Shown here: piece by piece, positions 1 to 35,611 of the stretch
Layout: each line of letters opens with the position of its first letter
How positions within the stretch are numbered: position 1 is the first letter of the stretch
From: Ustulina deusta
Lineage: Eukaryota; Ascomycota; Sordariomycetes; Xylariales; Xylariaceae
Assembly (NCBI GenBank): GCA_023159155.1
Contig: JAJNNX010000040.1
Span: 1 to 64,000, forward strand
Reading direction: 5' to 3'
DNA: 64,000 nt
Position numbers and translations under genes: made by a program
Notes under the pieces: generated by a model
What the model was told of the DNA's origin: nothing
Seen by the model: the letters and a program-made list of their open reading frames with translations, nothing else
Databases searched by the model: none

Positions 1-375
1 TAGCTATATATTTTAGCTAAAATAAATAAAAAAATTAATAAAAAGATTTTTATTAGTTTTGCTTGTTTTTTAAGTTAAATAAACTACTAGAGCTATTTTT
101 ATTAGGGCTTTTTTTTATTAGTTAAATATTTAAAACTTTAAGCTTTTAATTAAAATAGTTAACTAATACATATTTTTTTTTTTATAAATAAAATAAGTTT
201 TATTATTTTAATAAGTTTTTTTTTTTTTTATAATTAATACTTATTTTAATTATTTTAAAATAAATATTTTAAAACTTTTAAAATTAACTAAAAATTAGTA
301 AGCTAGTTTACTAAAAACTTAATTATTTAAATTAAATTTTTATTTAATTAAACTAATAAATTTAATTTATTAATA
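1..375 (+). repeat. Inverted repeat A, left arm
   Basis: Reads as the reverse complement of 1860-2236, starting at the shared TTTTAGCTAAAATA. Most mismatches are C/T or G/A transitions, as expected for two RIP-mutated copies. The arms flank about 1.5 kb. Boundaries are approximate because they were aligned by eye. Confidence 0.8.
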
Positions 376-1639: not shown

Positions 1640-1885
1640 AATTAATTAAATAAAGTTTTTATAGCTAGTTTATTAATATTATAAACAAAAATTCTAAGCT
1701 AAAAAAAAAAAAGAATCAAAAAATCAAAATTTATAAAATAAATAGATATAAACTCTATATATATAGCTGCAAAATTAGATTAGTCCGTGTGTAGACTTTC
1801 TATTTTATTGCTATATAAGTTTAGAGTCTTTGCAGGTCTTGCTAAGACTGTACTAACTATTATATTAATAAACTAAACCTGCTAG
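1640..1885 (+). repeat. Inverted repeat B, left arm
   Basis: Reverse complement of 6150-6405. Shared landmarks include a long A-run, TATAAACTC, TTAGTCCG-like and TTTGCAGG segments in the same order. The two arms enclose about 4.3 kb, so this could be the terminal inverted repeats of a dead DNA transposon or two inverted solo copies of one element. Confidence 0.75.
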
Positions 1886-2236
1886 CTTAACTAAACAAAA
1901 ATCTAACTTAAATAATTAAATTTTTAGTAAACTAGTTTACTAATTTTTAACTAACTTTGAAAGTTCTAAAATATTTATTTTAAAATAATTAAAATAAGCA
2001 CTAATTATAAAAAAAAAAAAAGCTTATTAAAATAATAAAACTTGTTTTATTTATAATAAAAAAAAATATATATATTAATTAATTGCTTTAATTAAAAGCT
2101 TAAAGTTTTAGATGTTTAACTAGCAAAAAAAAGCTATAATAAAAATAGTTCTAATAGTTTATTTAATTTAAAAAATAAATAAAACTAATAAAAATCTTTT
2201 TATTAGTTTTTTTATTTATTTTAGCTAAAATATATA
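1860..2236 (-). repeat. Inverted repeat A, right arm
   Basis: Reverse-complement partner of 1-375. This copy keeps more G/C (for example a CCTGCTAGC stretch near 1879) and so looks less mutated than the left arm. It abuts and slightly overlaps the left arm of inverted repeat B, which suggests nested insertions. Confidence 0.8.
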
Positions 2237-5200: not shown

Positions 5201-6149
5201 ATATTAAATACTATTTTAATAATGCTTACTACTTTTAGACCTAAAAAATAATAAAATTAATTAATTAAAAACTAAACTAATAATTTTGTTTTTATATTAA
5301 TAAATATTAAAATAATTAAAATATTTATTTTTTTGTTTTAAACTTTCTATATAATTTTTTATAATATTTATTAATTAATATATTACTACTAAAAATAATA
5401 ATAAAAATTAAAATATAAAACCTCCTAATAATAAATATTAATAAAACTATTATAAATTTTAATACTAAATAATAAGCGTTTAAACTAGTTTATTAAACTT
5501 AAAACATTTAAAAAATAATATAAGCTATAAACTAATAAAAAAAAATACTTAATAAATTTTAAAATAAAAAATAAAGTTTTTTTAAAAAAAAAAAAGTTTT
5601 GTAATATAAATACTAATTACTAAATTAAACTTTTAATTAGTTAAACTTTTCGAAATTTTAAAAAAACAAAAATTTAGCTATATTTTTAATTTATTTAATT
5701 TTTATAAAATAAAAAACTTATTTTATACTAACTAATTATAAAAAACAAATAATAACTTTATATTTTAATAAATCTAATTATTATTTTTAGTTAAAAATAT
5801 TAATAATAAAGCAGAATTTAAAATCGAATAAATTAAACAATTAAAAATATATAAAAAAACAAAAAGTTGTAATACTAGGTTGCTTAAAAAAGTTGCAATT
5901 TTAATAATATTTAGTATATAACTTAAAATTTTAAAAATATATTAATTAAATTTAACTAATTTTATAAAACTTATAAAAAAGCTTCCGAACTTTTTATAAA
6001 ATTATAAAAATAAATATATATAATAATAGCTAATAAGTTTATAAATAATTATAAAAACAATAATAAAGCAATATAATATACAAAAACTATATAAACTTAA
6101 TATTATTAGTAATTTTAAGTTAAAACTATATTTAAATTTTTAGTTTTAA

Positions 6150-6405
6150 AAAAAAAAAATATAATAGTTAGTATAGTTTATATAATTTTAGTAAAACCTG
6201 CAAAAATTCCAAACTTATATAACAATAAAATAAAAAATCTATATATGGACTAACCTAACTTTATAGCTATATATATAAAGTTTATATCTATTTACTTTAT
6301 AAACTCTGACTTCTTTTTTTTTTTTTTTTTTTTTTTTAGCTTAAAGTTTTTGTCTATAGTATTAATAAACTAGCTATAGAAGCTTTACTCGACTGATCGT
6401 AACAA
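6150..6405 (-). repeat. Inverted repeat B, right arm
   Basis: Partner of 1640-1885, with a T-run of about 27 nt in the middle. Where this arm reads CTTTACTCGACTGATCGTAA the partner reads the same with every C as T and G as A, a clear RIP contrast between copies. Confidence 0.75.
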
Positions 6406-8160
6406 ATAGATCAGCCTTTTTTTTAAATATTAAAAAAAATAATAATAAACTTGCTAATAAAAATAGTTTTATTAATTAGGTTAATACTAAATATATTTAT
6501 AATTTTATTATTTTAATTTTTAAAGCTAAGTTATGCTAGCTTAATAAGCAATGCTTAAATATTAGTATTATTACTTCTTATAATACTTAAATTAATAAAA
6601 TTAATAAAAAGTTATTTATATTTATAACTATTAAAATTATTTTTAAAATAATTATTATATATACTATTTAAAATATATAAAATAATAAATATAATATTAT
6701 TATTATTAATCTAATATATACTAAATAATTTAGATTTATTAAATAATAAAATTTTAGCTTAGTTATAATATTATAAGCTTATTATAGCTAGTTTATTATT
6801 AGTAATACTATTGTATAGGCTAGATCTAGCTATGCTAACCCTAGTAATAAATAGTTAATATATTATAAAAATTATTATTTAAACTATATTACTATTATAT
6901 TTTTTTTAAAAAATATATAAAAATTAGAATATAAACTTTGCTACTAAACTTACTATAAATTTTAGCCCAACTATAATAAATTAATTTATATTAATTATAA
7001 TAATAAATATTATATTTAATACTGCTTATGTTTTATTGTTTACTTTTTTAAAATTATAATTAATACTACTATAGCTACTAAACTTACTAGCTAGCTTAAA
7101 TATATTAAAAAAAATATATATATATATATATTTATGTTCTATTTTTACTAAACCAAAAAATATAGAACTATTAATAAGTTTAAAAGCTAGCTTAATAATA
7201 CTGCCCTATGCAAAAAAATACTTATAAACACTATTAATTAAGCTAAGCTTAATAAAAATATTATATATTTTAAAACAGTACTTTTTAAAAAAAAAGCAAA
7301 AATTTATAAAAATAAGCAGTAAACTAAAAAAAATAAGTCTAAATATATTAAAACTCTAATTATAAAACTTTAGCCCGGTTATACTAATTAAAATTTTATA
7401 CTAATGTTTAATATAGCTAAATATAAAACTTATATATTTAAGATTACTATAGTAAACTTTTTATATAAAAAATTTCTATTTATAGTTTAAAAAATTACTA
7501 CTTATATTATTTAATAATAAATAAATATAAAAAAATAGTTTATTATTTTTTTATTTAATAACTAGCATATATTTTTATATAAAATATAGCAATATATTAT
7601 TTTTATTAACCCTACTTAAAACGTAGCATATTAGTTTAATATAAATATTAATAAATAAAAATTAGTTATTAAACATATTAAAATTATTAAATATATTCTT
7701 TATATAATATATTATAAAATAACTTATATAATATAAAATAAAGTTTTAATATTTAACGCTTAAATTTATAATTATTAATAAAAATATAGTTTAGTATAAC
7801 ATAGCTTTTACTAATAAAAATATAGCAATTATAATTAATAGCTATTTTAATATAATAGATAATATTATTAGCTATAATTTAAATAATAAAATAAAAACCC
7901 CTAAAAATAATATATTTAATATAAATAGATTTAATAAATAAAATAGAAAATATTTAATAAATAAAACAAAAAATACTTAATAAATAAAACAAAAAATAAT
8001 TATATATTATAAAAATATAATCTTAATTCAAAAAAAAAATTTATTATATTATATAACTAAATTAATATTATATAACTTAGCTCTATTTATTTTATATTAT
8101 AGCTTAACTTTTGCTTATAAAAGTTAAAATAAAAAATTTTTTTTTTAGCAAGTTATATCT

Positions 8161-9821
8161 AGGTTCTGTTTAGATTGTTTTTTTTTTTGTGTGATACGTG
8201 GCTAGCACGTACTACACGCTACAATATACTGATTGCAGCCCATTATAGTTACCACGCTTCTAAAATCAGCTTACGATCTAGAACTTGATAAAAGCCCTAA
8301 GAAAAGTGCCGCTACAACAATTTTAGCGGTCGATAGGAAAGAATGGGAAAGCAAAGGTGGCAGGTACTCAGAGAATTGCCAGGGTGCGGTGTTCCAGCCA
8401 CGTGCTCCTGGAGTGCCGGCGTAAAGGACTATGCGTACCACGGAGGCAACGAAAACAAACTTTAGGCGCTTTCTTCGAAAAATTTGACCCTTTCATAGGC
8501 ATTTGTCTTCGAGGACTTAGAGCTAGCTCTTCATTTGGAGTGAAGAATTTGCATGACCGAAGTTTTGAGTTCGAAAAGAGCTAGTTCCATGAAAGTTGCG
8601 GAGTTAAGCAAGTGAGGATAAGTATCTCCGAGACTAGTGGTCTTAATGGGACGACAAAGATGGTGATCCTGGATCTGAACTAGGGCCAAATTTAACCCTA
8701 GTGATGTCAGATCCCGAGCCCAAAGACTCCTAGACGATTCCGCTTGTTTAAGTCATAATGTCGCTATTAGACAATTGGGCGTCAGAAGTAACAGAGGCGA
8801 GCAACAAAGTACTCATCAACCTAAGCGAAGGACAATGGAAAATGTGTCTTCACCCTGATAGAGAGAGACGTTGCGGTCGTCGGCGCAATAGGTGGAGCTG
8901 GTAGGGGTACATTTTTAGAGCTGATAATTAGCACACATGGGAATCAAATTCGTATCACTGATACAAACAAGTAAATCTATAGGCAAACAAGCCAATGATT
9001 ACCAAAAATCGTGATACCCCCAAGGAGAGACAGAAAGGGCTTCATCAAGATGCATTTTCGAGGAGCTACCTGTCGTCCTGCCCTGACGTTTAATTTTAAC
9101 AATTCCGATTGGTCAACAATAGTCTACTGCCTTATTTAAGACATGCGCTTGGCTCCGATTGGAGGGCTTGTTGAACCTTAACCTAAAAGGTCGATAATGA
9201 GACAACTAACCCTATCTCGTAGGCTCTTAAACTACCTGCTAATTCAATAAAATATCATCACATGAACACATGCACAGCTTGTAAATATTATACTGTTACA
9301 TGTGCTATAATTACGAGGTATTACACGAAACAGGCCTTGGATTGAGCTTCTTACATTCCTAAATGTTGAAGGTTTATATTATCATCGTCGAACTTGGCGC
9401 GGATACAGCCCAGCCTTTTCGCAGCCCAACATTCTATTTGTGACGTTTAGTGGCTAATATCAATTTAGAATCCTCTAGTTACAACGATTACTTCCTCTCC
9501 TTCACCTAGTCGGCGAACCGTTATTGACGGTAATTCATCTAGGAATCTGGCCGTTCCAGATGATCTTTCTCCAGTCTTTCCGCTGCGAAGAGCCTCTCAT
9601 TGGATTTCGGCCCAACCCTGCTTTGGCCTGTAAGTTCGAACACACGTCTGCCGTTGTTGAATTATTAACATCACACATACTCAGTACGAGGCTTAATGTA
9701 CATGTCTCATTAAACAGAAATTTTCAACAATAAAACTTATGCAAATTTGAACGCATTGAATTGACACTGTTGGTGCCCTACAGCAGTGCTAAAGGCAAAT
9801 GGGCATCGCCACTGTTCTTCC
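8161..9821. other. Gene-free stretch beside AT block
   Basis: Base composition is normal again but only short unrelated open frames occur, none with recognisable similarity or plausible splice structure. I see nothing functional here. Confidence 0.5.
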
Positions 9822-14730: not shown

Positions 14731-17170
14731 CTATATGTAGTACCCTCCCTCTTGTGGCTCGGTAACATCGTGCTCCTCTCCTCCAAATCCTAAGTGTGAT
14801 ACTATCCTTCCAGTTTCGATCGCTGCTAGGTCATCTACTTCCTGGGGTAACACTATCGCACCCCAGCGTAGCTTTCTCTGAACTAGGGGCAGAGATTTCT
14901 TTCTTGCTGCGTTTATTCTGTTTTCAACACTTGGAGAGTCCATATACTGTGATCTTGACAATAACGTATCTATCACAATTAGCCTCACAGGTTCATTAGC
15001 CATGCAGAGACAACAAGGCTCACCCCTAGATGAGTTGGATTGATTCTCCTCGGCCAAGCTTGAAGTCACCGCCGCGCCAGGCACACTGGTTACATGGCAG
15101 GCTGCTGATATTATAACCAGAGAATTGGATCCCCCAGAGACCATATTGCCCCTTAATCGTTGAAAACCGAGTAGGAGAGGAGGGCAGATTATGAGCACCA
15201 CAGATAAAATCAAAATAAGGAGTATAAACCCTGTGGAATACCCGAGGGTGATTAGGGAAGCATCTGAGACATGAAACATGTCTCTTAAATGAAAGAGGCT
15301 CACCGGTCCATTGTAATGATATCCTGGAGCCTGTTAGCCTTCCATCTGTAGTACCACACCAGAAAATTAACGTACCGCCGTCAACGATGTAGAGAAATAT
15401 TGCACTCGACGCGAGCCAATGAAAAAGGATACTGATCCCAATCAATGGTACGCTGAGGCTATACGGAAGCTGGAGACGATAGGTCGAAACCTGCTGACCA
15501 GAAGGGTATGATACCCGAAGAGGCTGGTAAGATTGGCTAAAAGAGTCCCATTCTTTCTCAACTTGAAGACGCGTAATCATCGCATTGTACACAGAGTAGC
15601 AGGATGAAAAAAATCAGCTGTGATATATTGGCAAGCAGGAGAGCGCCAATGAAAGTAAGGTCTCTCACTGCATACAAAGGAGAAAACCCATTCGAGTAAT
15701 CTAGTGAGAAAGAACTAGGACAAAGGTTAATAAATCATACCAGGAAGAATTATATCAAGGCTTGTCAGTCTCGGGGCATCAGCTATCAACTTACATCTCA
15801 TCATTACTGTCTATCAACGAATATATCAGGCCAAACAAGAGTAAGACCAGGTTCGTAACTAAAAATAAATACGTTTGAATCCGATTCTTATTATGGATGA
15901 TAGAGAATAGCAGCGGTTGTTTCTTTTTCCATTTACGTGGTTGAACGGATGTTGTGAAGTTAGATGTTGCGCTAGGGGTCCAGCGTCTGCGGAACCCATA
16001 CTACAATCCTTCAAGTAGTTAGAGCCATGTTTGAGGGGGTCCATGAGGGCAGGGCTGGGTATAGTAACAGACCTCAAGTCGCCAGCTATCAACAATGTGT
16101 AAAGTTCCCAATCCTTGAGTGCATGAGTTGGTGCAAGTTGGTCTCTGAGGATCGTGTCTAGTCGTGCACTGAGCTAAGAACTACAAAGAATTCACTCTGT
16201 CAGGATGAACAACGGCATCCCAGTGAGATGTAAGGTTAGCATTTGGACCGAAGTCGAAGACTTCTGATCGTGTCCATCCCGCAGAGCCCCCCAAGTCAAT
16301 AATGACCACCACATCGCTATAGTCCGTTCTGGGTTTACATGACAGGTATTCAGTCTGGCACGATGTGGCATCGAGGAAATCCCAAGCGCCAGCTTCTACC
16401 GCAACCGAGGTTATGTTTCGGCGGACAGTCGATAATGCGTCCAGATAATGATCCCAAGTGACAGGTTCACCGTATCCGAGGATAGGGGCGACATCCGCGC
16501 ACCCCTTCCATGTGTATCCATTGATTGGGTACTCATCCCCTTCTCTCCAGTGGGGACCATAAGATGTACCATTCGGTGGTGTATATCCCTGTGCCAGCTC
16601 TATCCACTGATATCCCGGGCCTGCAGCTCCCGCAGGGGCGAGGCTCGCCCCAGGCGGAAAGTACGGTGCTCCTGTTATGAAGGCCTCTGTCGCAATCGTT
16701 AAATGCCACTGGGAACCCTCGTATGCGGTGTGAAAGATAACACCGTTGAAAAATAGATGTATGGGAATAGAGCTGAAAAAGAAAATAAGCCAACTGATAG
16801 ATTTGAACCAGCTGACGAACCGTAGGTTCTTAAGTGAAGGTACTCCGATATCGACGGATCGAAGTCATGCGTGGGCTTCGTCAACTTCCTTGCGGGATGG
16901 CGAATTGAGAACTTGCATAAAGAAGTTTGAAGACGCGAGGATAACGGCCGCAACTATGTTAACCGACAAATGAAGAAGAAGGTTGAGCCCTGTCGACAAA
17001 TTACAGTTTCCATTGAAAATAATAGTCGAACCGCTGAGCGAGGCACCTGGTCGGGATACGCTGATTGAGAAGAGGACCAACAAGATGAGATCGCATACGT
17101 ATGCCAAGATGACGTTAATAGTGCCGGTGCGTCGCCACCCTTTGGGGAAGAATATTTGGAAGAGACTCAT
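14731..17170 (-). pseudogene. DUF6536 multi-pass membrane protein, broken
   Basis: Remnant of a fungal DUF6536 integral membrane protein of unknown function. The N-terminus (GWRRTG, then ASSNFFMQVLNSPSRKEVDEAHA), the middle (VDIGVPSLKNL, CTNSCTQGLG), and the C-terminal part (RVSYPSG-QVSTYRLQLPY, SGGSNSLVIISAACH, HLGFGGEEHDV) match the family in order, covering its full length. Disruptions: an in-frame TGA at 16865-16867 right after EVDEAHA; a TAG at 16181-16183 where the family has Trp in NSLW; further stops near 16000; and a one-base frameshift near 15591 between LIFFILLL and YNAMITR. Two introns survive (about 15318-15375 and 15723-15803). The nonsense changes fit C-to-T or G-to-A. Readthrough or assembly errors are unlikely for so many lesions. 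Confidence 0.8.
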
Positions 17171-20479: not shown

Positions 20480-21409
20480 CTATAGCAAGTCGACTCGCGG
20501 GCCCATAATCTCAGTCCAGTTCCAAGCGGAGTGGTCCGAGGCCCAGGATCTCAGTTGTTGGTAATCGCGGCACTGGTGGGTGTTTTCCCACCAGTTCACA
20601 CCATCCTCTGGCGTTGTGTCGGCCAGGCACATGACGGCGTTGCGCAGAACCTCCAAGCAGTGCACCATGTGCTCATCATCGTGTTCAGGCGTGCCCGTGC
20701 GAGTTCGGGCATGAAAGTACAACTTGGCGACGGATGCCTTGAAGAGTCAGTCTTAAACCCAGCGGATTCAATGTATTTACATACAATACAGTGGATGTGG
20801 TGCCAGTAGGCTATGGTATAGGTGGACTTGATCTCATCCGGACCGCCTACGGTCTTAGGGTTAACCGGTCTGGGTGGAGGTAGGTTATGGTCTTTCCACT
20901 CGTCGATTACTACGATACCACGATCGTCTACACGTAGACACTAGGTTAGCAGAAGTCCCACACTTGATCCGCTGTCAATGACTAGATAATACGGACCCGG
21001 GGAAAGCTCCACAAAGCGCTCCATTTTGTCAATGAGTATAGTCTCGTTGTAGAACATGGCCGGTTCCAACCAGTAGTCGCTTGCTGTTAACTTCATGCGG
21101 ATTGTAGGGACTGCGATGCCGTTAGGTATGTATGTTCGTTGAAATGTTCGAGTTCTTTAACTTACCTTCCACGTAAGGGCTCCCGCCAGGAGTTAGGACG
21201 AGATCATCATGATACGTCTTGGAGTTGTAGGCTACTAAAAGCGAGAGAAGAGCGATGGTGACCAGACACAGATCGAAGACGAATCTCCAAGATATGAAAT
21301 AGCCCTTGATGGTTGATCGCATGTGCTGCTCTGTGGGGACAGAAGATGTCTCGCTTTGAAGCGGACACTGCGCTGCTTCGTCAGCGACAAGTTCATATGC
21401 GTGCTTCAT
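20480..21409 (-). CDS. UstYa-family (DUF3328) oxidase, internal TAG
   Basis: UstYa-family proteins catalyse oxidative cyclisation of ribosomal peptides (ustiloxin, asperipin, phomopsin pathways). Exons 21409-21166, 21110-20785 and 20722-20480 join in phase into 270 codons. A cytosolic N-terminus precedes one membrane helix (about 43-60). The family SDYW motif lies at 92-95, and both HXXHC motifs are present: HHIHC at 185-189 and HMVHC at 208-212, followed by RNAVMCLADTT and CRDY. One codon, number 138 (20941-20943), is TAG, so either this allele is dead, or a 36-nt GTGTGG...GTGTAG segment (20928-20963, with GCTAAC inside) is spliced out; it is a multiple of three but shorter than normal fungal introns. 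The ATG at 21409 was chosen because the protein then has the usual short N-tail. Divergent partner of the next UstYa gene. Family call is firm, integrity is not. Confidence 0.78.
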
Positions 21410-22117
21410 CTTGTCGAAGGTAAACGAGGAAACGTGGATAATAATTAAGCAGGGAAAATATTGAAGAAGTGCATTGTCTCTCCTCGATGAACACGGACCG
21501 AATGAAAAGGGATGGGGCAAGTTATGAGAGGTGCGCACGTGCTGGAAATTTCGAAGTCGGCGAGATAGAGGCTGAGCAAACCCCACAAACCCGAGCGCAA
21601 TCTTGGTAAGTACTTTAAAACAAGGTAATAGTTCTATGCAACTTTCTAGACCTTACGCATACGTTAGAATTCTAAGGATGCGGATATGGTCAGCCTTACT
21701 ACACCAGATCCATAGGGGCTGTTTAATGCCTTGGCATCTATAAAAAAAAACGGCACCGTCAAACCGATCGCTCCCGCTCGCGCAGCCTAGCTTAATCCAG
21801 TAAAGCCAAAGCCCTAGGCTCGGGGAGAAATCATACATCATACACGGGCTAATCTTCAAGGTAAAACACTATATTGATCAAGCTAGAATACGACACTTGC
21901 CCCCTCACAAAAATGGCGGCATCAGCAGATTCGAGAATAGGTAGCCCACTAGGGGTAGATTTGGTCTTGATTATAGATCACCTCACTAATTCGGCTTCGA
22001 AGCCGTGCATGTAGTTCGCCGAAGTAAAAATCTATTCGTTTTCTACTTCTATTTCACTTTCTCATCGTCATTATTAACAACTTCGTCTGACGACTACACA
22101 TCTTGAACTACGGAATT
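21410..22117. promoter_or_regulatory. Divergent promoter between two UstYa genes
   Basis: A 708-bp region separates the start codons of the two divergent UstYa genes, so it should hold both promoters. Its striking feature is the palindrome at 21992-22005 (listed next). Head-to-head pairing suggests co-regulation; that is inference. Confidence 0.55.
21992..22005. promoter_or_regulatory. CGG-N8-CCG palindrome, Zn2Cys6-type site
   Basis: CGGCTTCGAAGCCG is a perfect 14-bp palindrome with CGG and CCG half-sites eight bases apart, the architecture bound by fungal Zn2Cys6 dimers. It is 113 bp before the ATG at 22118 and inside the divergent promoter. I did not find the same element before the precursor gene, and no Zn2Cys6 gene is in the window. 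Confidence 0.45.
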
Positions 22118-23066
22118 ATGGATAGCTCGGATGCCGGCGACTCAAAGGAGCGTCTTCTTCGCTCATCTGACGATTTTACCGAGTCAACGGCCGCCTCTTT
22201 GAAGGCTCGAAGTGTACGATCTCTAAATCTGTTACGGCTATGGACACTGGTCAACGTGATCTTATCGCTGGCACTTCTGGGATCTTTACTGCACCAGCTG
22301 TGGCCAAGCTCGTCTCGTATCAACAGACTCTTGCGAGAGACATCGCCGTTCTGTGAGCGCTTAACTTTGCCTCCTATTTTTCGACTTGCTGACCGCTGAA
22401 TTAGCTCCTATCTTGGAAACAGTCGAGGTGCGAACGTTCTCGTCTACAATAGACGGCGGTATCGCGGCACATTCCAAGTCGTCCATAGCCCGCTTGCCCC
22501 CTGGTCCAGAGGCAGATGCAGCTTGGGAGCGGTTTGAAAAGATCCGCACTGTGGTCATCTCAAAGTCGGACGTCAAAATGATGGGCAAGGATCCGATGAG
22601 CGCGGCCATATTCCCTGACGAGCACTGGGGTTTCGGCGAAGATGCCTACATGGGCCAACTTGACATCGTGCACCAGCTACATTGTCTAAACGCCCTGCGC
22701 AAGCGAGCATTCGCTGCTGCGTGGAACCCCAAGGCAGAAGCAGACGCAAGGGAACAGCCCGAGTGGCGGTGGATACATCTCCAGCACTGTGTTTCTATCT
22801 TGCTTGAGAACCTCATGTGTCACGGAGACACAGAGCTGCTGACTATGAACTGGATCAAGGAAGCAGACTATCCGTTTCCAGATTTCTCTATTAAGAAGCA
22901 ATGTCGCGACTTCGAGACCCTTTTGGATTGGCAAGCGGAGCGAGCGGTGGATATGGACCAGTGGATGAACATGACCAAGCCCAGCGGCGTGACTGTCATT
23001 CCGGGCGAGAAGGATTGGTTCCAGCTTTTTGCGGACAGCGAGGTCGGTACCGCGCATGACCACTAA
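22118..23066 (+). CDS. UstYa-family (DUF3328) oxidase, intact
   Basis: Predicted membrane-anchored oxidative cyclase for a ribosomal peptide. Exons 22118-22352 and 22405-23066 (52-nt intron, GTGAGC donor, GCTGAC branch, TTAG) give 298 residues. An N-terminal cytosolic tail is followed by a membrane helix at about 43-60, then SPILETVEV at the exon junction, which is the usual start of the UstYa catalytic part. The two diagnostic HXXHC motifs are HQLHC at 168-172 and HLQHC at 203-207; CHGD and KQCRDF follow as in the family. No stops or missing key residues. It lies between its divergent paralogue and the repeat-containing precursor, the expected context for a dikaritin-type cluster. The two paralogues are distant from each other outside these motifs. 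Confidence 0.92.
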
Positions 23067-24048
23067 TGGTAGACATACTATGTAACTTCCAAGCAAGTCT
23101 TGAGGGTATCTTGAGTGGTTAGAAATGCGAGGAGTGAAATTAGTCTAGACTAGTGAATGCTCGACGGGCCATGTCTTGGCATTTTGTGTAGGCACGAGGA
23201 GTACCTATTTTAATTTGTACCATCGAAGTGACCCATTAAAGCTTGGTGCAGGAAGATCTAGACTAACCTCTTTGAGATAGGCGATCAATAAGGCCCAGTC
23301 GCGAAGTCGAGTCCATTTGATAAGATTACATTATTATTCTCATTATTATAGACACAGAGAAGATAGCAACCGTAGGTAGAATATGGTAAGACGATTCAGT
23401 CCTCCCTATCTCGTTTTTTCTTTCCTGATATCACCTAGTGCACTCAATTCAAATGCCCGTAAGCACTACCGTGTGGGTTTTGATGTCTGCCGCGATTAGG
23501 ACCAGCCAAAGTCTCATTTCTATATTGAGTTGGGTCCTAGCAGCTGATCTAACCCCATCCGAGTTAGATAAACCGACAAGGCGAAGAGACCAACTGTCAC
23601 AATAACCGCCGCATGTTACACAAATCAACACACCCAGAGCTGGCCAGGGCAACCAGTCGTCGAAGGCGACGACCATTATAGCAATGGACTATATTCGCGA
23701 GCCTTTTGTTAACCATTTGCAGCTAGCAGCCGGTCGGTTTATCCAAGTCTGTGTAATTCAGATTACATTCATGCTTACTTTACCTTTTGCTCACGTTACC
23801 CTCTAACGAGCGACTCATTCAGCTGATATCTAGCAATGCCGAAAGGGGCAACGATCTGGGGAAAGGGAGACTCTCAGTTCTAAAAAGGCTTGAGGGTGAT
23901 TTCTTATGAGAACCACACCTCCGGAGAGCATCTCACAAGTTGGTCTATAAAAGGTAGTCATTCTCTCTCAGTCTGTACTTCTCCAGACACACCTCCATCG
24001 CAACTCATAACCAGTATATTCCGACTTCAGCTTTCCTCAGACTCCATC
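23067..24048. other. Upstream region of the precursor gene
   Basis: No gene seen between the second UstYa gene and the precursor. The last 150 bp look like a strong promoter with a TATA box and a pyrimidine-rich leader (listed next). Confidence 0.5.
23946..23954 (+). promoter_or_regulatory. TATA box of the precursor gene
   Basis: TATAAAAGG, 103 bp before the precursor ATG, followed by CT-rich sequence and a C/A-rich leader ending TCCATC before the ATG. This core-promoter layout is typical of highly expressed small secreted fungal proteins. Confidence 0.6.
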
Positions 24049-24392
24049 ATGCATACTACCAAGACTCTCGCCATTTTGGCCTTCGCCGCAGCCATGGCCG
24101 CTGCTAGCCCCGTGTAAGTTCGTCAAGACAAGTTATTCTACCATCCACTAATTGGTTCAACAGTGGACTCGTCGATGCCGGGAAGGAACATGTTGATGTC
24201 CCCAACTACTCTAACTCCTACCTTGACAAGCGGGGTGAAGCCAAAGTCGACGTTCCCAACTATTCCAATTCCTACCTTGACAAACGCAGTGAAGCCAAAG
24301 TTGATGTCCCCAACTACTCCAACTCCTACCTCGACAAGAGAGGCGAAGCTAAAGTTGACGTCCCCAACTATTCCAATTCCTACCTCGACTAA
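24049..24392 (+). CDS. RiPP precursor with four Kex2-bounded cores
   Basis: Predicted secreted precursor of a cyclic peptide. Exons 24049-24113 and 24164-24392 (50-nt intron, GTAAGT, CACTAATTG branch region, CAACAG) give 97 residues. Residues 1-20 are a signal peptide (MHTTKTLAILAFAAAMAAAS). After a short leader (VGLVDAGKEH) come four identical cores, VDVPNYSNSYLD, separated by KR-GEAK, KR-SEAK and KR-GEAK; the fourth ends at the stop. KR is the Kex2 site and the acidic/Ala spacer resembles aminopeptidase-trimmed spacers. Two Tyr per core offer sites for UstYa-type ether or C-C crosslinks. Synonymous differences between identical cores argue that the peptide is under selection. Two UstYa genes lie immediately upstream. 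An alpha-type mating pheromone is less likely because the cores lack Trp and Cys. The mature product is unknown. Confidence 0.88.
24192..24389 (+). repeat. 54-nt tandem repeats encoding the peptide cores
   Basis: Units begin at 24192, 24246, 24300 and 24354, the last truncated to 36 nt by the stop codon. Units 1 and 3 share AACTACTC-AACTCC and units 2 and 4 share AACTATTCCAATTCC, so the array probably arose by duplication of a two-unit, 108-nt block. The coded core is invariant. Confidence 0.9.
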
Positions 24393-25344: not shown

Positions 25345-27467
25345 ATGGCTAATGCTTCATCGGAGAACATCGAAAAGTAAATCATCCCAGTTGGGCGGAA
25401 GTGCACACTATGCTAACGGAGATTAGGGCAACCGAGGTTTCTGGAACTTCTTGTAATGCCGACCAGCTTCGCGAAACAGTTTCGTACAAGACTGCAAACA
25501 AATCAGTGTAAGTTGACCATTCTCTTTAGAAAGTGGACTCCTGGCGGCTTAATATGATGATAGCATTGAAAACCCCCTAGTAGATATCCCAAAGGCCCGG
25601 CTTCTACGAAACGTGGAAGACTTCGTAGCCAAATACGGCCTTTCAGATGACGTTGAACTCTTCAAGAAGGGCGCCCTTGCCGCCCAAAGCCCTCAAAGCT
25701 TCGACACTATCCCAGAGCTCAACGATTATGACCGTGGTTTGTTGAAAGATGAAATTACCTATCGCTGGAAGCACCCGAAGGCTCTCTACCTCACGATTAT
25801 AATGAACTCTATTGGTGCTGCTATACAAGGCTGGGATCAGACAGGATCGAACGGAGCCAACCTGTCGTACCCTAAGGCCTTCGGCATTGCCGATACCGGT
25901 GAGAGCTGTATGGTTGCCGGGACTTGTGCAAGAAATTCGTGGATTATTGGTGCGATCAATAGTGCTCCATATATGGCAATTACTATTATGTGGGTTGAAA
26001 AAAGAAAACCACCCCAATGGAGACACGCGCTGACTAGTTTCCAGTGCCTGCTGGATCTCCGACCCGATAAACAATTTGACTGGCAGGAGGGGAACTATCT
26101 TCATCGGTGGCATATTCAGTCTTCTTGCGCCGATTGGGCAGGCTCTATCCCAGTCGTGGCCGCAGATCTTGGCCAGCAGAATTCTTCTCGGAATTGGGAT
26201 GGGGCTGAAGGAAGTCACAGTACCGGTCTTTTCTGCGGAAAACGCGCCAGCTCCTATCCGGGGTGCACTTGTCATGTCGTGGCAGCTTTTCGTGGCGGTG
26301 GGAGTTGTGCTGGGTTTCAGTGCTAACTTGGTCGTCTTAGACGTTGGTGACTTGACCTGGAGACTTCAGTTAGGTTCCGCCCTCATACCCGCTATACCGT
26401 TGTTGATCGGCGTATGGTTTACTCCCGAGTCTCCACGATGGCTGTTGAAAAAGGGTCGTGTCGCGGATGCATATAAGTCTCTTGTCAGGCTCCGAACGGA
26501 CCCCTTATTTGCGGCACGAGATCTCTATTACATCCATGCTCAATTAGAGCTAGAAGACGAACTAAGAAAGGCGGGTGGCTTTGCGGACGGTAACCTTTTT
26601 GCTCGATTTTTTGAATTGTTCAAGGTACCTCGAAACCGACGTGCGACTCAGGCATCGGGCATTGTTATGGCCGCCCAGCAGTTCTGTGGCAGTAAGTCTT
26701 CCTTATGCCTACTCAACACGCCATCGTCTCTTCTATGTTAGGGCCTGACTTTGATTGCCTAACTAGTCAATATAATGGCATTCTACTCATCAACCATCTT
26801 CGTTCAGGCTGGAGCTAGCACAAAGGTTGCTCTCATAGCTTCTTGGGGTTTCGGGGTGGCCATGTTAGTCTTCGCCATCCCTGCCCTTTTCACAATCGAT
26901 CTCTGGGGCCGTAGAACTCTGCTCCTTTCTACGTTCCCAAATATGGCTTGGACATTACTTGCGGCCGGCCTGTCTTTTTATATTCCAGAGGAGAGCAGGG
27001 CGCATATCGGTCTCATTGCACTCTTTGCGTATCTGTTTGTTGCTTTTTACGCCCCCGGTGAGGGACCGGTAGCCTTCGTTTACTCATCCGAAGTATTCCC
27101 TCTATCCCATCGTGAAGTGGGCATGTCTTGGGCCGTGGCCACGAACAACTTCTGGGCCGTGATTGTAGCGCTCACGTTTCCCGCAATGCTACAGGGTCTG
27201 GGGCCTCAGGGAGTGTTCGGATTATTCGCGGGCCTCAATGTGGTCTGCTTTGTGGCTATATTTCTCTTCATTCCAGAGACAAAGAAACGATCACTTGAAG
27301 AGTTAGACGTTGTTTTTAACATACCAACTCGCAGACACGCATCATACCAGCTGAAGGAAGTGTTGCCTTGGTGGATCAGACGCTACGTTCTACGGCAGTG
27401 TTCTGAGTCAGCGCCGCAATTATCTCACTTTGAAATGAACGAAAACCTGGAAATTGGATTGAAATGA
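25345..27467 (+). CDS. MFS transporter, sugar porter type
   Basis: Predicted proton-coupled sugar or polyol transporter of the plasma membrane. Five exons (25345-25376, 25427-25507, 25564-25989, 26045-26691, 26767-27467) join in phase into 628 residues with about 12 membrane helices. Family marks seen: [15 protein letters not shown] in the first loop, [12 protein letters not shown] across the third intron, the R-x-G-x-G motif in [17 protein letters not shown] after helix 6 and [11 protein letters not shown] after helix 12. The long hydrophilic N-terminus (about 110 residues before the first helix) is usual for this fungal subgroup. It is the nearest gene downstream of the RiPP precursor, so it could be the product exporter, but the sequence looks like a nutrient porter rather than the DHA-type exporters common in such clusters. 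Confidence 0.88.
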
Positions 27468-28297
27468 ACAAACTGTAGTGAAGGATAAACATATGATGAA
27501 GTTGAGTGGGTGAAACATGAAGTGGTCGAATATCTATAGTTACCTTGTGGCTATACAAGTGAAAAAGCCGAGTTAACGCCATCAATTCGGCAAGCCCCTT
27601 ACTATCATAGTATTGCAATACACCTGCTGTAGCCCGATATTGCATACAAATGTTGAAGTGTTAGTATGGAAGCGTTTAAGACTAGAGGTTCTGGCATCTA
27701 AAATTGGAGTCCTCTATACCACGTTTGCCCTACAGGGCGGAAACCTTTATATGAACCTTACCCTTATCTCAGGTGGCCTCAGACTAGAACCTACTAAATG
27801 GACTGGCGGGCTGCGCCTGCTGCCAGGTATAACCCACCCCCTTCGGGGGCCCATGCAGATTTATTTGTAGGTCTTGGGCTAGGGTTTATTTGTTTTTAAT
27901 CTGAGGAATGCCTGTTGTTTTGAAAGCTATGTGTTGTTTTTTATGCGTACAAAATAAAAATATACTAGTTATTCTTAAATATAGTTAAATGATTTAATAA
28001 TATTATTTAGTTTAATGAATTAATTCTATATATAATAATATTGTTTATAATTATAAAATCTGTATTTTTAATAATTTTATATAAAGAGAAAATCGACAGG
28101 TATGCTTTAGACCAGAATTCCGAGTTTGTGTTGGGGGGTGGTGGAAGGTTGTGATTGGTCGGATGGTGGTATGGCTGGGGAGGCACAAACGCAGGACCAT
28201 TCTGGGCTGAGGTTCCTGGGATAAGGTATCACATCTTTGAGTGGCCCAGGCTGAGACATCGGCATTTTACTTACCGCCAGCTCTCTCTCTTCAAGTT
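27468..28297. other. Intergenic, AT-rich patch and repeat fragment
   Basis: 27940-28090 is a short AT-rich patch resembling the RIP block. 28172-28224 is a fragment shared with the copia remnant (listed next). No gene recognised. Confidence 0.5.
28172..28224 (+). repeat. Copia-derived fragment beside unknown gene
   Basis: GGGGAGGCACAAACGCA and GGACCATTCTGGGCTGAG here match 30690-30742 in the copia remnant with only a handful of differences over about 53 bp, same orientation. It ends about 75 bp before the ATG at 28298, so it lies in that gene's promoter or leader. Confidence 0.7.
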
Positions 28298-29833
28298 ATG
28301 TCGCCAGTCCACCACCTCAGACTGGTTTCGCTTCTGATTCTTGTCATAGCCATTATTGTGTCGGTGGTAATTCGCCAGCACAGTTCTGAAGCGGGCCAGC
28401 CAGCTACTCGTAACAACCATCTGCACGCGATGGACGACGGTGGACACCTCGTGACCTTGGCCAATCCCGCCCGTGAAGATGGGACTCTGGACTACGAAAG
28501 ATGCGCTAAGCTGCACAACCGTCTAGTTGAGCACGCCTGGGTTGCTGACGGAAGATTGCTTGATGATCTTGAGCGACGATCGTTCTTCGAGCACTATGGC
28601 GACGAGGCAAACGACATCGCGGATCGCCTAGACCCCTCACTAGTAGCCTTCCTCAAATCAGTAATTGTGCCGGAAGATCCGCCCCCATTTTTCTTCTGGG
28701 TCGAGGGTATCGCGCCGCCAGCCGAGATATTCTCCGCCTATGAGATGTTTCAAGACTACGAAGAAGCGGGACCTGGGCGATTTCTCACTCTATACACCAC
28801 TAACCCCGGGTTAGGAGGGCACTCCCTGGGTCTGATATACGATCAGAAGCTCCACAGAGCTACGATGACGCTCGGGGTCGAAGACGTCGACTTCGTCAAA
28901 CCAGTCGAAGAGCACGACGAACTGTGGCATTCGCTGGAGGCTGTGCTCAGTAACTGGATCTACATGGTACAGATCAAGAAGATAATCGCCTCTCAAGAAG
29001 AAGCCCCGAACGAGAAGTTCGGACCTTGGACCTGGCACCCATATAGCGAGCCACAGGTAGCCAGCACGGTTGTCGCCTTTGAACAACTCGTAACCACCAT
29101 CGAGGAACGCATGCCGGTCGAGAGCTATCTACACCCTGCCGAAGGTCCCCTGCTCAGTAACGAGCAACTAGATGCGGCATCTGTCCCAGGCGATTGCTTC
29201 ATTCGCTCTTTCGCCACGAGAGCCCGGAAACCTCGCTTTAGAATGATCGCGCCGGGGTTAGAAGTCCCCCACGACCCTACCGCTTTTGCCAACAATCAGA
29301 AATTCACAGTCATGGATGTCAGGTCGGAATATGGTATCATTATCCCTCCGGTGCTCCTCTTCGCGTCGTCAGAACGCGCCGCAGTGAACCTCGCGGCCCC
29401 CAGTCAATACGTATCGTTCAACCCGTTCTTACGCGAGTTCCAAGATGTGCGAGGTAACGGTCCTGTCATCGCGGGTCTGTATTCCGAGTCTGTCGAGAGG
29501 TTCTCCGTCGATAACGCAGAAGAAGGCTTCCGTCTGCTGCTTCCGTTCCGTTTCCGTGGGAGCGACTCGGAAGAAGGCCGCGGGGCCAAGAAAAGTGACG
29601 GAAATGTTGTGACTGAGGGAAGTGTCGCCGAACTGTTCCAACATGGTTTCAAGCCGTTTGGGGGTGAGTGGTGGCGGGCACAGAGGCTTGAGAGCTTGTT
29701 CGACCATTGGAGATGGTTAATTGAAAAGGATATCTGGACTGTTGGTGACGAGGGCGTGCAGGGTGACATAAACCTGTTTAGGGATAGTGACACGGGTTCG
29801 TCGGAAGAATACCGCATAGAACCAAGCTGGTGA
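28298..29833 (+). CDS. Unknown single-pass membrane protein, 511 aa
   Basis: An uninterrupted single-exon frame of 511 residues starting at the first ATG (28298). The N-terminus has a short tail, then a strong membrane helix (about residues 9-28, VSLLILVIAIIVSVVI), so the large remaining domain is probably lumenal or extracellular. That domain is acidic and aromatic-rich (PPPFFFW, GPWTWHPYSEPQ, SYLHPAEGPLLSNEQL) without a catalytic signature I can name. It looks like a fungus-only family. It lies 3' to the MFS gene and on the same strand as the RiPP precursor, so it may be a cluster member of unknown role, or a neighbour. A copia fragment sits just upstream and an LTR 90 bp downstream. Confidence 0.72.
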   Translation: MSPVHHLRLVSLLILVIAIIVSVVIRQHSSEAGQPATRNNHLHAMDDGGHLVTLANPAREDGTLDYERCAKLHNRLVEHAWVADGRLLDDLERRSFFEHYGDEANDIADRLDPSLVAFLKSVIVPEDPPPFFFWVEGIAPPAEIFSAYEMFQDYEEAGPGRFLTLYTTNPGLGGHSLGLIYDQKLHRATMTLGVEDVDFVKPVEEHDELWHSLEAVLSNWIYMVQIKKIIASQEEAPNEKFGPWTWHPYSEPQVASTVVAFEQLVTTIEERMPVESYLHPAEGPLLSNEQLDAASVPGDCFIRSFATRARKPRFRMIAPGLEVPHDPTAFANNQKFTVMDVRSEYGIIIPPVLLFASSERAAVNLAAPSQYVSFNPFLREFQDVRGNGPVIAGLYSESVERFSVDNAEEGFRLLLPFRFRGSDSEEGRGAKKSDGNVVTEGSVAELFQHGFKPFGGEWWRAQRLESLFDHWRWLIEKDIWTVGDEGVQGDINLFRDSDTGSSEEYRIEPSW

Positions 29834-31460: not shown

Positions 31461-32432
31461 TTATTCTTCAAGGGGTGGTCCTCCATTGTTGCTATTGTCA
31501 ACACCATCTGCGGTTGGATCGACGCCAACGGTGATATATCCTATCATACCATTTTCATAGTTTTCTCCATCAGTAGGCACAACGCTGAAAATCGGGTTGT
31601 AGCCATCCTCCCAGGATCCGCTGATGAGGGCGTCTCTCGTATTAGTGGTCCGGTTCACTTGGGTATGTGTAACATAAGGGTCTAAAGCCATGATTTGTGC
31701 CGACAGACTCTCATCGAAGTAAAGCTGTCCTGTCGATACAATATTGCCCGACGACACAGTGCCATTACTGTGCAGAGTCCAATCCGTGAAAACCTGGACG
31801 TGGATGTGGATAGCGCGGCCAACATAGAAACCAGGGAAAATAGTCTTCATTTCCAGGACACCTTCATCGTTGGTTGGCCACATGCCACGGAGCCAGGTGG
31901 TGTCATCTGTGTGCAGGTCGGTAACACCAATCTCAAAATCCTCCTCGTCGATACCAAGCTGGCCGAGAAGTTCGACGAATTCGGTATTCGGTGATAGGGC
32001 GGTGAAACTTGAGTAGCTCCCCGTGGAATTGCAGTGCCAGAAGTTGAGGAGAACATTTGGGAGAGGCTCGCAAGTGTTGATATCGATGACACCGACGTCC
32101 ATCCAAAAAGGGACTCCTATCTGGCCCTCACTCATATCCTGTCGCAGGGTCTGGGAGCGTGGCCAGACATAAGGGCCTTCAGTAACAATTGGGCTCAGGA
32201 CACAGGTTTCGTTCTGAATAGAATCGTAATAAGGAGCCTCAGTCTGAATCTGGACCGTGGTGTTGCCAGCGCCTGCCCACCGTTTCTCCATACGTTTCCG
32301 ATTGAAGCTCGCTGCAGAAGGCGCACATCGCTTAGATATGTTACTCCTACGTTGGATTTCGCGGCGCGACAGAGTTTCGGGATGCGCCAGGGCGACCGAG
32401 AGGAGGCCAGCGAGGACCACAGAGAACTTCAT
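31461..32432 (-). CDS. Secreted intradiol ring-cleavage dioxygenase
   Basis: Predicted non-haem Fe(III) dioxygenase that opens catechol-type rings, secreted. A single exon of 323 residues: signal peptide 1-16 (MKFSVVLAGLLSVALA), a basic propeptide-like stretch (RREIQRR, SKRC, RKRMEKR), then the catalytic domain. Expected iron ligands are all in place: Tyr in VTEGPYVW, Tyr in FPGFYVGR and two His in AIHIHVQ. NFWHCNSTG and the TTWLRGMWPTNDEG stretch are typical. It is divergent from a second dioxygenase 2 kb away with a different intron pattern. Roles in lignin-derived aromatic breakdown or detoxification of plant phenolics are known for relatives; substrate here is unknown. Confidence 0.9.
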   Translation of the reverse strand: MKFSVVLAGLLSVALAHPETLSRREIQRRSNISKRCAPSAASFNRKRMEKRWAGAGNTTVQIQTEAPYYDSIQNETCVLSPIVTEGPYVWPRSQTLRQDMSEGQIGVPFWMDVGVIDINTCEPLPNVLLNFWHCNSTGSYSSFTALSPNTEFVELLGQLGIDEEDFEIGVTDLHTDDTTWLRGMWPTNDEGVLEMKTIFPGFYVGRAIHIHVQVFTDWTLHSNGTVSSGNIVSTGQLYFDESLSAQIMALDPYVTHTQVNRTTNTRDALISGSWEDGYNPIFSVVPTDGENYENGMIGYITVGVDPTADGVDNSNNGGPPLEE

Positions 32433-34457
32433 TTTTCAGATGGTGTGAGGACAGAAAACCAACTGTTTACCGCCACTATCCGTAATATGAGAGTAGGTAG
32501 ACGGTCGTTGGGAGAATGCTTTGAGAGTTTTGCTCGTAGACTACCCACGTATATATATACTATATCGGCGCCGCTTGATGGGGCCCGGTGCTAGAGCCCG
32601 GTACTACTGTATCGGACGCAGCCTTTCGACAGCCGACCTGCTTGACTGGGTTAGTGATTTCTGACCGACTCCGGAACGCCCTCCTGGCTGTGTATGACTA
32701 GTTAACGCACAGACACGCTACAATTCATAATCGACAAAGCAGCGCCGTTCATTGGCCGCAATGAGGCAGGGGAAGACGCCGTCGAGTCGACTCGGGAGGG
32801 GGGCTTCGGGAGGAACAAAGAGCCGCGCAGGGAAGTGGACCCAAGTGACGGACTGTGAACTTATTGCGCAGGCGGTGTACGCGACTTGCTCAATGGTTTA
32901 CACGACATGATGATACTATAAAGGAAAATAGTGGCTCTAGACAAGGCTTCGGAATATTATACGATGCTGAGAAAATGCGCTCGAAAAAATTTTCAACCAG
33001 AATTTCCACCACTACATATGCTCCCTCATCATATCTAGTTGAAAGGCGGTGCCTCTCCTACAGCATCGCATATTTTTAGAAAATAGCATTGATATTATTT
33101 CTTTTCATAATTTCGTGCTTGTTGCGATTATATTGCATGCCTAGCACCAGCAGGTTGTTACAATTCACGGCAATACAATGGCGAATGTCATTCTCATGGT
33201 TCTAGTGCAGCCATAATTGCTAACTCCATGTCTTGAACAAGCTCCGGCCAGTCTATGCCACCACATACCGGGCTTGACAAAAATGGTAGAAAAAGACATG
33301 CATTGTGACGCGTGGCACCTTCTCCATCAATGTTTGGACTCTTGGCAGAAACATCTGTGTGGACAATCGCAGCGTTGATGGTGCGGTCACAACAATAGGT
33401 ATTTTATCCACAATAACAGTGATGGGTGTGGAAGCTGCTCACCGACTATTCAATCAAGGAGTTAGGTAAGTTATACTGCATAATAACACGCTTGATACTG
33501 GTATCATCTTGCACCTTGAAGGCCCAAACCCAACACCAATGCGTGCGTATATACTGAAATATACATCTTGCTACTTTAGCTTTGGTGTACTAGGGACACA
33601 AGATATACGACATTCGACAGCATGACAAATCGTGCATTAGATCGGGCTAGGGGTCGGGATGTGGGAGAAATTGTCGGCAGACAATTAACTTCTCACATAG
33701 GATCCCCAGTTTTCTCCAAACATAGGTACCTCTGAGGCACGGTGCATAGAAGGACCCTTCACAGTGGGTTCCATGTCAAATACCGGTAGGTACTCCATTC
33801 CCTCTGGAGCATCAAACATCCACTCTATCGCTTGGCACTGCGTAAGCTCTCTACGCGTCTAAGCCTGGCTGCATTATTAAGGAAGATTGATGATTGGCTA
33901 ACATCAACCAGGATCTCAGGTCAACCCTGTGGGTCAAGGTGTGTGGTTTTACAACCACATGGTTAATGTTAGCGAACGCATTCGCTGCTTACCCCAGAGA
34001 GTCAGAGACGACACTCTCCTGTCTTTGTTCACCCCTGGACTGATAGAACTTGAGACTTGAGGCTATACACTACTGTACCTTGCCTCATATGAAAACTTAA
34101 CTAGGATGAAGACAATTGGTGGGATTTCGTAGTTGGCTGGTAGAAGAGGCACGCGTCGGGGAGGAACGGAGGCGACTCCGTAGTATCAGCAGAAGGCTAT
34201 CGAACGAATATAAAATCACAACGTTTCCCAACGAGGTGCTAACATTCCTTCATCTTGTGTACCACTCACAGTCTTCTCACAGTCTTCTCATCATCTTCTC
34301 ATCATCTTCTCATCATCTTCTCATCATCTTCTCATCATCTTCTCATCATCTTCTCATCATCTTCTCATCATCTTCTCATCATCTTCTCATCATCTTCTCA
34401 TCGTACTCTCTTGCCTTTTCCGTGATCCATAGCACTTCTATCACAACCAGAATCAGA
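32433..34457. other. Divergent region between dioxygenase genes
   Basis: About 2 kb with no gene recognised. The end nearest 34458 holds an 11-bp tandem repeat (listed next). The region presumably carries promoters for both dioxygenases. Confidence 0.5.
34284..34403 (+). repeat. 11-bp tandem repeat in dioxygenase 5' region
   Basis: About ten or eleven copies of CTTCTCATCAT, nearly perfect, ending 55 bp before the ATG at 34458. An open frame runs through it from 34116 because 33 nt is three units, but its encoded SSSSHHLLIIF repeats look like a by-product. A pyrimidine-rich leader or promoter element is more likely. Confidence 0.85.
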
Positions 34458-35611
34458 ATGCGTTTCTCGACTTTCCTCGCTACCTCAACTGCTGTGCTGG
34501 TCACTGCCCACCCTGGCGCTGACCATCAAAATGAGATTCTCCAACGCCGAGAGTTCATCTCTAACTCTAAGCGTTCTGATCTAAGCCATTGTGCTGCAAA
34601 GCTGAGCGCCCGAGGTATTGCGCAGCGAGGTGTTCAGCGCCGCAAGGCTCTTGCGGACGCAAGAAGCAAAAGCGGAATAGTCAGCCGTGATGTCAGCGAC
34701 AAGGACAAGTCGCATCTCTCAGACAGTGGCTACACCCTCGACACCTCCCTCGATGTCATCTTCTCCTCCAACACCTCCTGTCTCCTAAGCCCCGAAGTGA
34801 CTGAGGGACCGTACTGTAAGTGGAAATGGTGGTCTGCTTGTAGCGGCGCGAGAACTAACTTAGAGATGCAGACGTGGGTGGCGAGTATATCCGCCAGGAC
34901 ATCACCGAGTCGGAGCAGGGTGTTCCATTGACGCTCGATATCGCCATTTATGATGTCGATACCTGCGAGCCCGTTACTGATGCTTGGGTTGAGATTTGGC
35001 GTAAGTTCCTTTTATACTCGGCCAGTTTAAATCTTCAAGTCTAACATTTCGCAGACTGCAACTCTACCGGTGTTTATTCCGGGGTTGCTTCGGGCGCCGA
35101 CTACACATCGGCACCTGAGAATCTGGACACCACCTTCCTCCGTGGCTTTCAGCAGACCGACGTTGATGGTGCCATCAGTTTCGATACAATTTACCCTGGC
35201 CATTACAGCGGTCGCACGCAGCACGTCCACGTTATGGTCCACCCCGACGCCACCGCACGTGAAAACCAGACCATCCTCGACGACACTGCCAGCCACGTCG
35301 GTCAAATCTATTTTGACCAGGATTTGAGCGACTTGGTCGAGACTCAGACCCCCTACTCAACTAACACGCAATCGGTCACCACCAATGCAGAAGATTCGAT
35401 CATTGATGCCAGTCTGGCAACCGGTGACGCCATTGTAGAATACGTCATGCTCGGTGAGGCTGTGGCCGATGGTGTTCTGGCTTGGATCAGCTTTGGCATC
35501 AACACCACCCAGACGTCGACCCCATCCCTTGCCTCCACCTACTACGCCGAAGGTGGTGTTGAGAACCCCTCCAGTGGTTTCCCTGGTGGAGCGCCTCCCG
35601 CCAAAAACTAA
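34458..35611 (+). CDS. Secreted intradiol ring-cleavage dioxygenase
   Basis: Second extracellular intradiol dioxygenase. Exons 34458-34815, 34872-35000 and 35055-35611 join in phase into 347 residues. Signal peptide about 1-17, then a Lys/Arg-rich pro-region with several dibasic or KR-like sites. The first intron interrupts the codon after EGPY and restores VTEGPYYVGGEYIRQD; the second restores EIWHCNSTG. Iron ligands: Tyr in EGPYY, Tyr in YPGHYSGR, and two His in TQHVHV. The C-terminus is Ser/Thr/Pro/Gly-rich. The start at 34458 gives a clean signal peptide; the open frame extending upstream to 34116 covers the tandem repeat and is rejected. Clearly homologous to, but diverged from, the gene at 31461. 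Confidence 0.9.

Follow-up and report, generated by a model that had tools for sequence, protein, structure and literature searches.

The dikaritin or ust-RiPS class of ribosomally synthesized and post-translationally modified peptides (RiPPs) is minimally defined on the basis of DUF3328 (PMC12048977). An older five-gene definition by Ding et al., quoted in the same paper, includes a tyrosinase, a methyltransferase, transporter proteins or peptidases. Ustiloxin formation requires UstYa, UstYb and a tyrosinase, and the precursor is thought to be first cut by Kex2 (PMC6514808). In the same paper, asperipin-2a is described as a bicyclic peptide derived from the core FYYTGY, with ethers between a Tyr side chain and a beta-carbon; it needs the UstYa-type enzyme AprY, and its locus of four genes contains no tyrosinase. 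On a larger scale, a survey from 2020 counted 7,878 Kex2-processed repeat proteins (KEPs) in 1,461 genomes, of which 1,758 were accompanied by DUF3328 genes, with a mean of 1.7 such genes each at a mean distance of 3.09 genes (PMC7329392). Ustiloxin-like RiPP loci have also been reported in Hypoxylaceae (PMC8403587). The locus considered here lies at positions 20480-24392 of a 64,000-nucleotide stretch of an Ustulina deusta assembly (contig JAJNNX010000040.1; the whole stretch is called the window). It holds three genes, UstYa-2 on the reverse strand, then UstYa-1 and a repeat precursor on the forward strand, and we read it as a minimal dikaritin-type locus of the asperipin-like kind, with a probability of roughly 0.8.

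UstYa-1 (22118..23066, forward strand) is a DUF3328/UstYa-family oxidase gene made of two exons, 22118-22352 and 22405-23066, separated by an intron of 52 nt (GTGAGC...TTAG). Its 897 nt, from the ATG at 22118 to the stop at 23066, give 298 codons and a stop. The open reading frame (ORF) that holds exon 2 matches PF11807 in Pfam with an E-value of 2.4e-49, and the two HXXHC motifs, HQLHC and HLQHC, are found at 22671..22685 and 22776..22790 on the forward strand. UstYa-2 (20480..21409, reverse strand) belongs to the same family and has four exons (21409-21166, 21110-20997, 20927-20785 and 20737-20480) that add up to 759 nt, i.e. 252 codons and a stop, with the ATG at 21409 and the stop at 20480. 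Its last exon alone matches PF11807 with an E-value of 2.1e-12, its motifs HHIHC and HMVHC occupy 20788..20802 and 20657..20671 on the reverse strand, and one membrane-helix-like segment can be seen by eye at the N terminus. The family of both proteins is settled by Pfam together with the motifs. An NCBIfam search of the two proteins gave no match, and a search for a solved structure of the family, with alignment A1 and protein P0049 as queries, returned 0 matches at E<=0.1. The start codons of the two genes are 708 bp apart (21410..22117), and this divergent intergenic region presumably serves as a shared promoter.

A naive reading of UstYa-2 runs into an in-frame TAG near 20941, and a six-frame search likewise reports stops. 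The TAG falls within a 69-nt intron (20928..20996, reverse strand, GTCCGT...GTGTAG); the third intron of the gene uses an AAG acceptor. Annotated UstYa-2 relatives of 252 amino acids from Ustulina deusta, Xylaria grammica and Nemania sp. FL0031, obtained with exon 1 as the only query (3 proteins from 3 candidates), align over the exons and leave a 69-nt gap at the stop-bearing stretch. Since the sole apparent stop is inside a GT-AG intron that coincides with this gap, UstYa-2 is, as judged from its sequence, an intact gene.

About 1 kb beyond UstYa-1, the precursor gene (24049..24392, forward strand), of the KEP type, encodes 97 amino acids in two exons, 24049-24113 and 24164-24392. A TATA box-like element, TATAAAAGG (23946..23954, forward strand), begins 103 nt before the ATG and presumably drives the gene. 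The N terminus, MHTTKTLAILAFAAAMAAASPV, is hydrophobic and signal peptide-like by eye, and is alike in three relatives. It is followed by a repeat array of 3.7 copies of a 54-bp unit (24192..24389, forward strand) that encodes four identical 12-residue cores, VDVPNYSNSYLD, with spacers reading KR(G/S)EAK; KR at residues 44, 62 and 80 closes the first three units. At the DNA level, seven columns vary among the four cores and all of them (7/7) are third codon positions, with a probability of 9.5e-5 by column class alone. This indicates that the core peptide is kept while its DNA drifts. When the 56 kb of the window from base 8001 onwards were codon-shuffled 30 times, a strict repeat scan, asking for at least three similar segments bounded by dibasic residues, detected no array. 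The genome was also searched for another copy of the precursor, and none was seen: of the three matches at E<=1, two are the exons of the window precursor and the remaining one has E 0.21. The sequence-only reading had drawn the same picture at the same coordinates, with two divergent UstYa/DUF3328 genes bearing complete HXXHC pairs and, 1 kb downstream, a TATA-driven gene for a signal peptide and four identical 12-residue cores at KR sites. The gene models of all three genes agree with it, as do the PF11807 matches of both UstYa genes in the profile comparison that it had proposed; its TATA box holds as a TATA-like sequence with a presumed promoter role.

The locus has the features of the minimal DUF3328-based class, namely a double-HXXHC UstYa gene beside a precursor with a signal peptide (by eye) and KR-spaced cores at which cleavage is predicted, and linkage of precursor and UstYa gene in a second species, X. 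grammica, adds support that is not part of the definition. It equally fits the DUF3328-accompanied KEPs as described in the survey, which combine a signal peptide, Kex2-spaced repeats and a DUF3328 gene within a few genes (PMC7329392). The asperipin-2a locus of Aspergillus flavus (aprA, aprY, aprT, aprR) shares with the window repeated Tyr-rich cores, a UstYa-family enzyme, a transporter gene and the lack of a tyrosinase. It differs in having one UstYa gene and the core FYYTGY, whereas the window has two UstYa genes and the core PNYxNxYL; moreover, its isoflavone reductase has no counterpart among the 30 window stretches scanned, and the window transporter is of the sugar-porter type. In the same way, the ustiloxin B locus (ustA, ustYa/ustYb, ustQ and others) resembles the window in its two UstYa homologues, its KR-spaced repeat precursor and a Tyr with an i+2 residue able to take an ether, but has 16 repeats, the core Y-x-I-x and a tyrosinase, as opposed to four repeats, another core and no tyrosinase match on the contig. 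The phomopsin locus (phomA, several DUF3328 genes, phomQ) follows the same precursor plan with DUF3328 enzymes; unlike the window, it has five DUF3328 genes, a tyrosinase and the core YVIP.

That the core differs from the YAIG, YVIPID and FYYTGY types, as had been proposed, is upheld, PNYxNxYL being distinct from FYYTGY, Y-x-I-x and YVIP. The sequence-only reading had also called the gene arrangement the defining architecture of these pathways and the locus undescribed. The former stands for the minimal form of the class and fails for the five-gene form; the latter holds for the core, of which no description was found in the literature searched, and not for the class of locus, which was surveyed in PMC7329392. 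The locus is thus, by its sequence features, a member of a well-described class, with novelty confined to a core not found in the literature searched. The string 'Xylari' is absent from the main text of PMC7329392, whose supplementary tables may list this core, and no work on Xylaria RiPPs together with UstYa was found in the literature searched.

Relatives of the precursor at E<=1 were three proteins among 753 candidates, P0001-P0003 from Xylaria FL0043, Xylaria FL0064 and X. grammica, each named hypothetical protein. The protein collection was clustered at 90% identity with few names shown per cluster, so that the lack of a species in it says little, here and below. The three proteins share with the window precursor the signal region, an SPVG junction and the core motif; they differ from it in having three units against its four, in carrying A or H (or S) at core position 7, and in their RK, KK or longer spacers. 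The four precursors together hold 13 units, four in the window and nine in the relatives, all of which read P-N-Y-x-N-x-Y-L with A, S or H at position 7 and S, G or F at position 9, and each of which contains two Tyr. As the units were chosen by their PNY, the independent count covers the N, Y and L that come after it (13/13); visual inspection of the four sequences showed no unit lacking PNY. The spacers vary among the precursors while this motif is kept, as expected if the precursor is processed and its core functional.

In X. grammica, the UstYa-2 orthologue EKO27_g10570 and the precursor EKO27_g10572 each lie on a contig 24,982 bp long. Their numbering fits the gene order of the window, with space for one gene between them, and the linkage of precursor and UstYa-2 looks conserved in this species on the strength of equally long contigs and gene numbers two apart. 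Moreover, the UstYa-1/UstYa-2 pair is found on equal-sized contigs in annotated U. deusta (F4823DRAFT_600618 and 600619; 167,735) and in Nemania sp. FL0031 (647,736). Exon by exon, the UstYa genes of the window are about 94-100% identical to those of U. deusta.

The pairing of UstYa genes with repeat ORFs extends beyond the window. The assembly contains 45 exon-level PF11807 matches that were grouped into 26 loci; 19 of the 25 outside the window were read (20 stretches, 200 kb), i.e. 20 of the 26 with the window included. A dibasic-repeat ORF was present near UstYa at 11 of these 20 loci, the window among them, always within 2.1 kb and each time with its own core. Outside the window this amounts to 10/19 loci, at 0.57-2.1 kb from the UstYa match, eight with at least three copies and two with two copies. 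If 50 such genes were evenly spread, about 0.18 would be expected in 200 kb, and the probability of at least eight would be about 1e-11. The KEP background was derived from the survey figures and from the remainder of the window, in which the strict scan, itself uncalibrated on known KEPs, detected no array. Duplicates were dropped from the strict scan (the second frame of L022 and overlapping hits in L001-L003, L009 and L010), and the looser scan gave 25 rows, of which 10 were kept, one per locus, and 15 dropped as other frames, opposite strand or low-complexity. This co-occurrence across the genome supports the view that the window locus forms one pathway.

The eight loci with at least three copies carry the cores APWPLYVAKDA (L012, C34:407236), NFEADPLLHIGNQAESSY (L013, C75:143695), NWNEAAWSNFVKSYVDGAEQV (L015, C45:490445), SDADTAYTKEVSD (L017, C65:388842), VDAVQNTVY alternating with DVDxFINLLY (L019, C47:573806), LEKDNDDIWLW (L022, C47:1017508), ADIDVADAF (L026, C42:476158) and TDIPIAAIVSLIGGN (L030, C1:2156701). 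By eye, a signal peptide-like stretch stands in frame or at most 400 nt upstream in six of the eight, the exceptions being L022 and L026. The two-copy ORFs beside UstYa matches, VDGTQIAEGW at L018 (C66:159948-160163) and RDGTTEFDPDFAL at L021 (C30:412967-413113), are the weaker cases, having come from the looser scan, which had no shuffle control of its own. Six cores of these other loci were not found in the literature searched.

Two further observations concern the same set of loci. At L024/L025 (C13:72540-79038), a tyrosinase match (C13:74403-75145) lies between UstYa matches, a pairing of the classical dikaritin kind, and neither the strict nor the looser scan found a repeat precursor there. 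The spacers of several precursors possibly share a recognition element: in some units of the window precursor and of L018, L019 and L026, an acidic residue and then [VI]D are found at the core or immediately ahead of it (GEAKVD, SEAEVD, EADID, EEAVD).

A route from gene to product can be proposed for the window locus, in which Kex2 processing, copper chemistry and ether bonds are carried over from work on relatives. The signal peptide would direct the 97-residue precursor into the secretory pathway. In the Golgi, Kex2 would cut after KR and a carboxypeptidase would remove the KR, releasing copies of GEAK- or SEAK-VDVPNYSNSYLD. The two UstYa-family enzymes, as membrane-anchored copper oxidases with their HXXHC pairs in the lumen, would then oxidatively cross-link the P-N-Y-x-N-x-Y-L segment. 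In line with this, the DUF3328 protein CctR was reported to be a copper enzyme that holds two copper ions through HxxHC(x)nHxxHC and loses activity upon mutation, and was proposed to be membrane-anchored with its catalytic part in an organelle lumen (PMC12435403). Tyr also occurs in 65.6% of the repeats of DUF3328-accompanied KEPs versus 38.2% otherwise (PMC7329392). The likeliest bond would be an ether from a Tyr phenol to a neighbouring beta-carbon. Tyr6-Asn8 may be the first candidate, since its i,i+2 spacing matches that of the ether between Tyr and Ile in ustiloxins and phomopsins, and Tyr10-Leu11 the second; Tyr6-Asn8 is put first as a guess based on conservation and spacing. After trimming, a cyclic or bicyclic peptide would be secreted. 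While the genes, motifs, repeats, conservation and linkage are observed, the position of the bond, trimming, export and any biological role are inferred. A bolder proposal, which we regard as tentative and on balance doubtful, is that the at least 11 UstYa-linked precursors with their own cores, from the Tyr-rich PNYxNxYL to the Tyr-free ADIDVADAF, reflect a UstYa family that radiated with its substrates, and that the window pair installs a Tyr-to-Asn side-chain ether. Such an ether is not among the fungal cases covered here (PMC7329392, PMC6514808, PMC12435403).

Several findings weigh against the assignment to a dikaritin-type pathway. None of the 23 tyrosinase (PF00264) matches and none of the five S41 peptidase matches, both counted at exon level with the best candidates scored, falls on the locus contig (C59), which leaves the locus incomplete under the five-gene definition; it is also because of these absences from the contig that an asperipin-like route fits best. 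Linkage of the precursor was seen in one of its three relatives, X. grammica alone: for FL0043 (contig 7,047) and FL0064 (673,068), no UstYa protein on the matching contig was among the proteins listed, where clustering at 90% may hide them. For X. grammica itself, no UstYa-1 orthologue was among the matches listed from these clusters, nor was EKO27_g10571 among the proteins listed. Likewise, no U. deusta precursor was among the matches listed, despite the near-identical UstYa genes; it is possibly an overlooked small gene. The dibasic sites are KK at both positions in FL0064 and RK at one of two in FL0043, and KK and RK are weaker Kex2 sites. Finally, UstYa enzymes also modify a non-ribosomal peptide (PMC12435403).

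Other explanations were weighed against this background, each judged separately, so that their likelihoods need not add up to 1. The enzymes might modify the peptide without cyclising it, by hydroxylation, dehydrogenation or halogenation; both hydroxylation (by CctR) and halogenation have been reported for DUF3328 proteins (PMC12435403). With ustiloxin, phomopsin and asperipin-2a, the three products of ribosomal precursors described in the literature covered, all carrying Tyr ether rings (PMC7329392, PMC6514808) and two Tyr present in every one of the 13 units, we consider this unlikely. The precursor could instead yield a linear secreted signal of a pheromone-like or developmental kind, the UstYa neighbours being coincidental or acting elsewhere. 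Conserved short peptides between KR sites would suit signalling as well, 78% of KEPs have no DUF3328 neighbour (PMC7329392), and two of the three precursor relatives are not tied to UstYa genes. This reading is distinctly unlikely in our view, given the linkage apparently kept in X. grammica and a UstYa-repeat pairing that recurs at 10 of 19 other loci; DUF3328 neighbours were moreover reported for 0% of the 227 alpha-factors from yeasts and for 1.4% of the 216 KEPs that are fungal pheromones (PMC7329392). What counts against an alpha-pheromone in particular is these neighbours alone, by way of the survey rates.

Tandem repeats are also found in cell-wall proteins, so that a structural repeat protein which is not processed might be envisaged. 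This is very improbable for a protein of just 97 residues in which the first three cores are each followed by a dibasic site and whose dibasic spacing is kept in relatives. As for a decaying locus with UstYa-2 as a pseudogene, the in-frame stop of the naive frame would be its mark, and it is scarcely credible with that stop in a GT-AG intron, three 252-residue relatives aligned over the exons, and frame and motifs intact. The dikaritin-type reading remains the preferred one.

On that reading, the window offers a clean and intact minimal locus of two enzymes and a precursor in Xylariaceae, whose likely target would be the conserved eight-position motif, within a genome that has different candidate substrates at 11 of the 20 examined UstYa loci (of 26). 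A minimal locus together with varied candidate substrates makes the matching of DUF3328 copper oxidases to their substrates directly testable. For comparison, the survey, which applied other detection rules, comes to a mean of about 1.2 KEPs with DUF3328 linkage in each genome (1,758 over 1,461 genomes; PMC7329392).

Downstream of the precursor, a sugar-porter-type major facilitator superfamily transporter gene with several exons (25345..27467, forward strand; Pfam/NCBIfam match, start codon presumed) is of uncertain membership in the cluster. It is followed by a 530-residue open frame at 28241-29833 on the forward strand, whose N-terminal segment looks membrane-like by eye and which matches nothing in Pfam or NCBIfam. 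In the 30 window stretches compared with Pfam, which cover part of the exons, no methyltransferase, a member of the five-gene set, appeared. Elsewhere, the window encodes a DUF6536 protein (16865-17170), an intradiol dioxygenase-like protein (31461-32432), an exo-beta-glucosaminidase-like protein of glycoside hydrolase family 2 (50582-53221) and a ThiF-rhodanese protein (55764-57215). The first 8200 bases (1-8200) have about 10% G+C and a TpA/ApT ratio of 1.30, versus 47% and 0.89 in the rest, as in repeats mutated by repeat-induced point mutation or a centromere edge. At 60019-60324 there is an array of a diverged 18-bp unit with the consensus CCCAGCCATACTGGCTGA. An 11-bp unit, TCTTCTCATCA, is repeated in 11.9 copies at 98% at 34272-34402, within the ORF 34116-34931; the repeat may vary in length, and the ORF is possibly coding.

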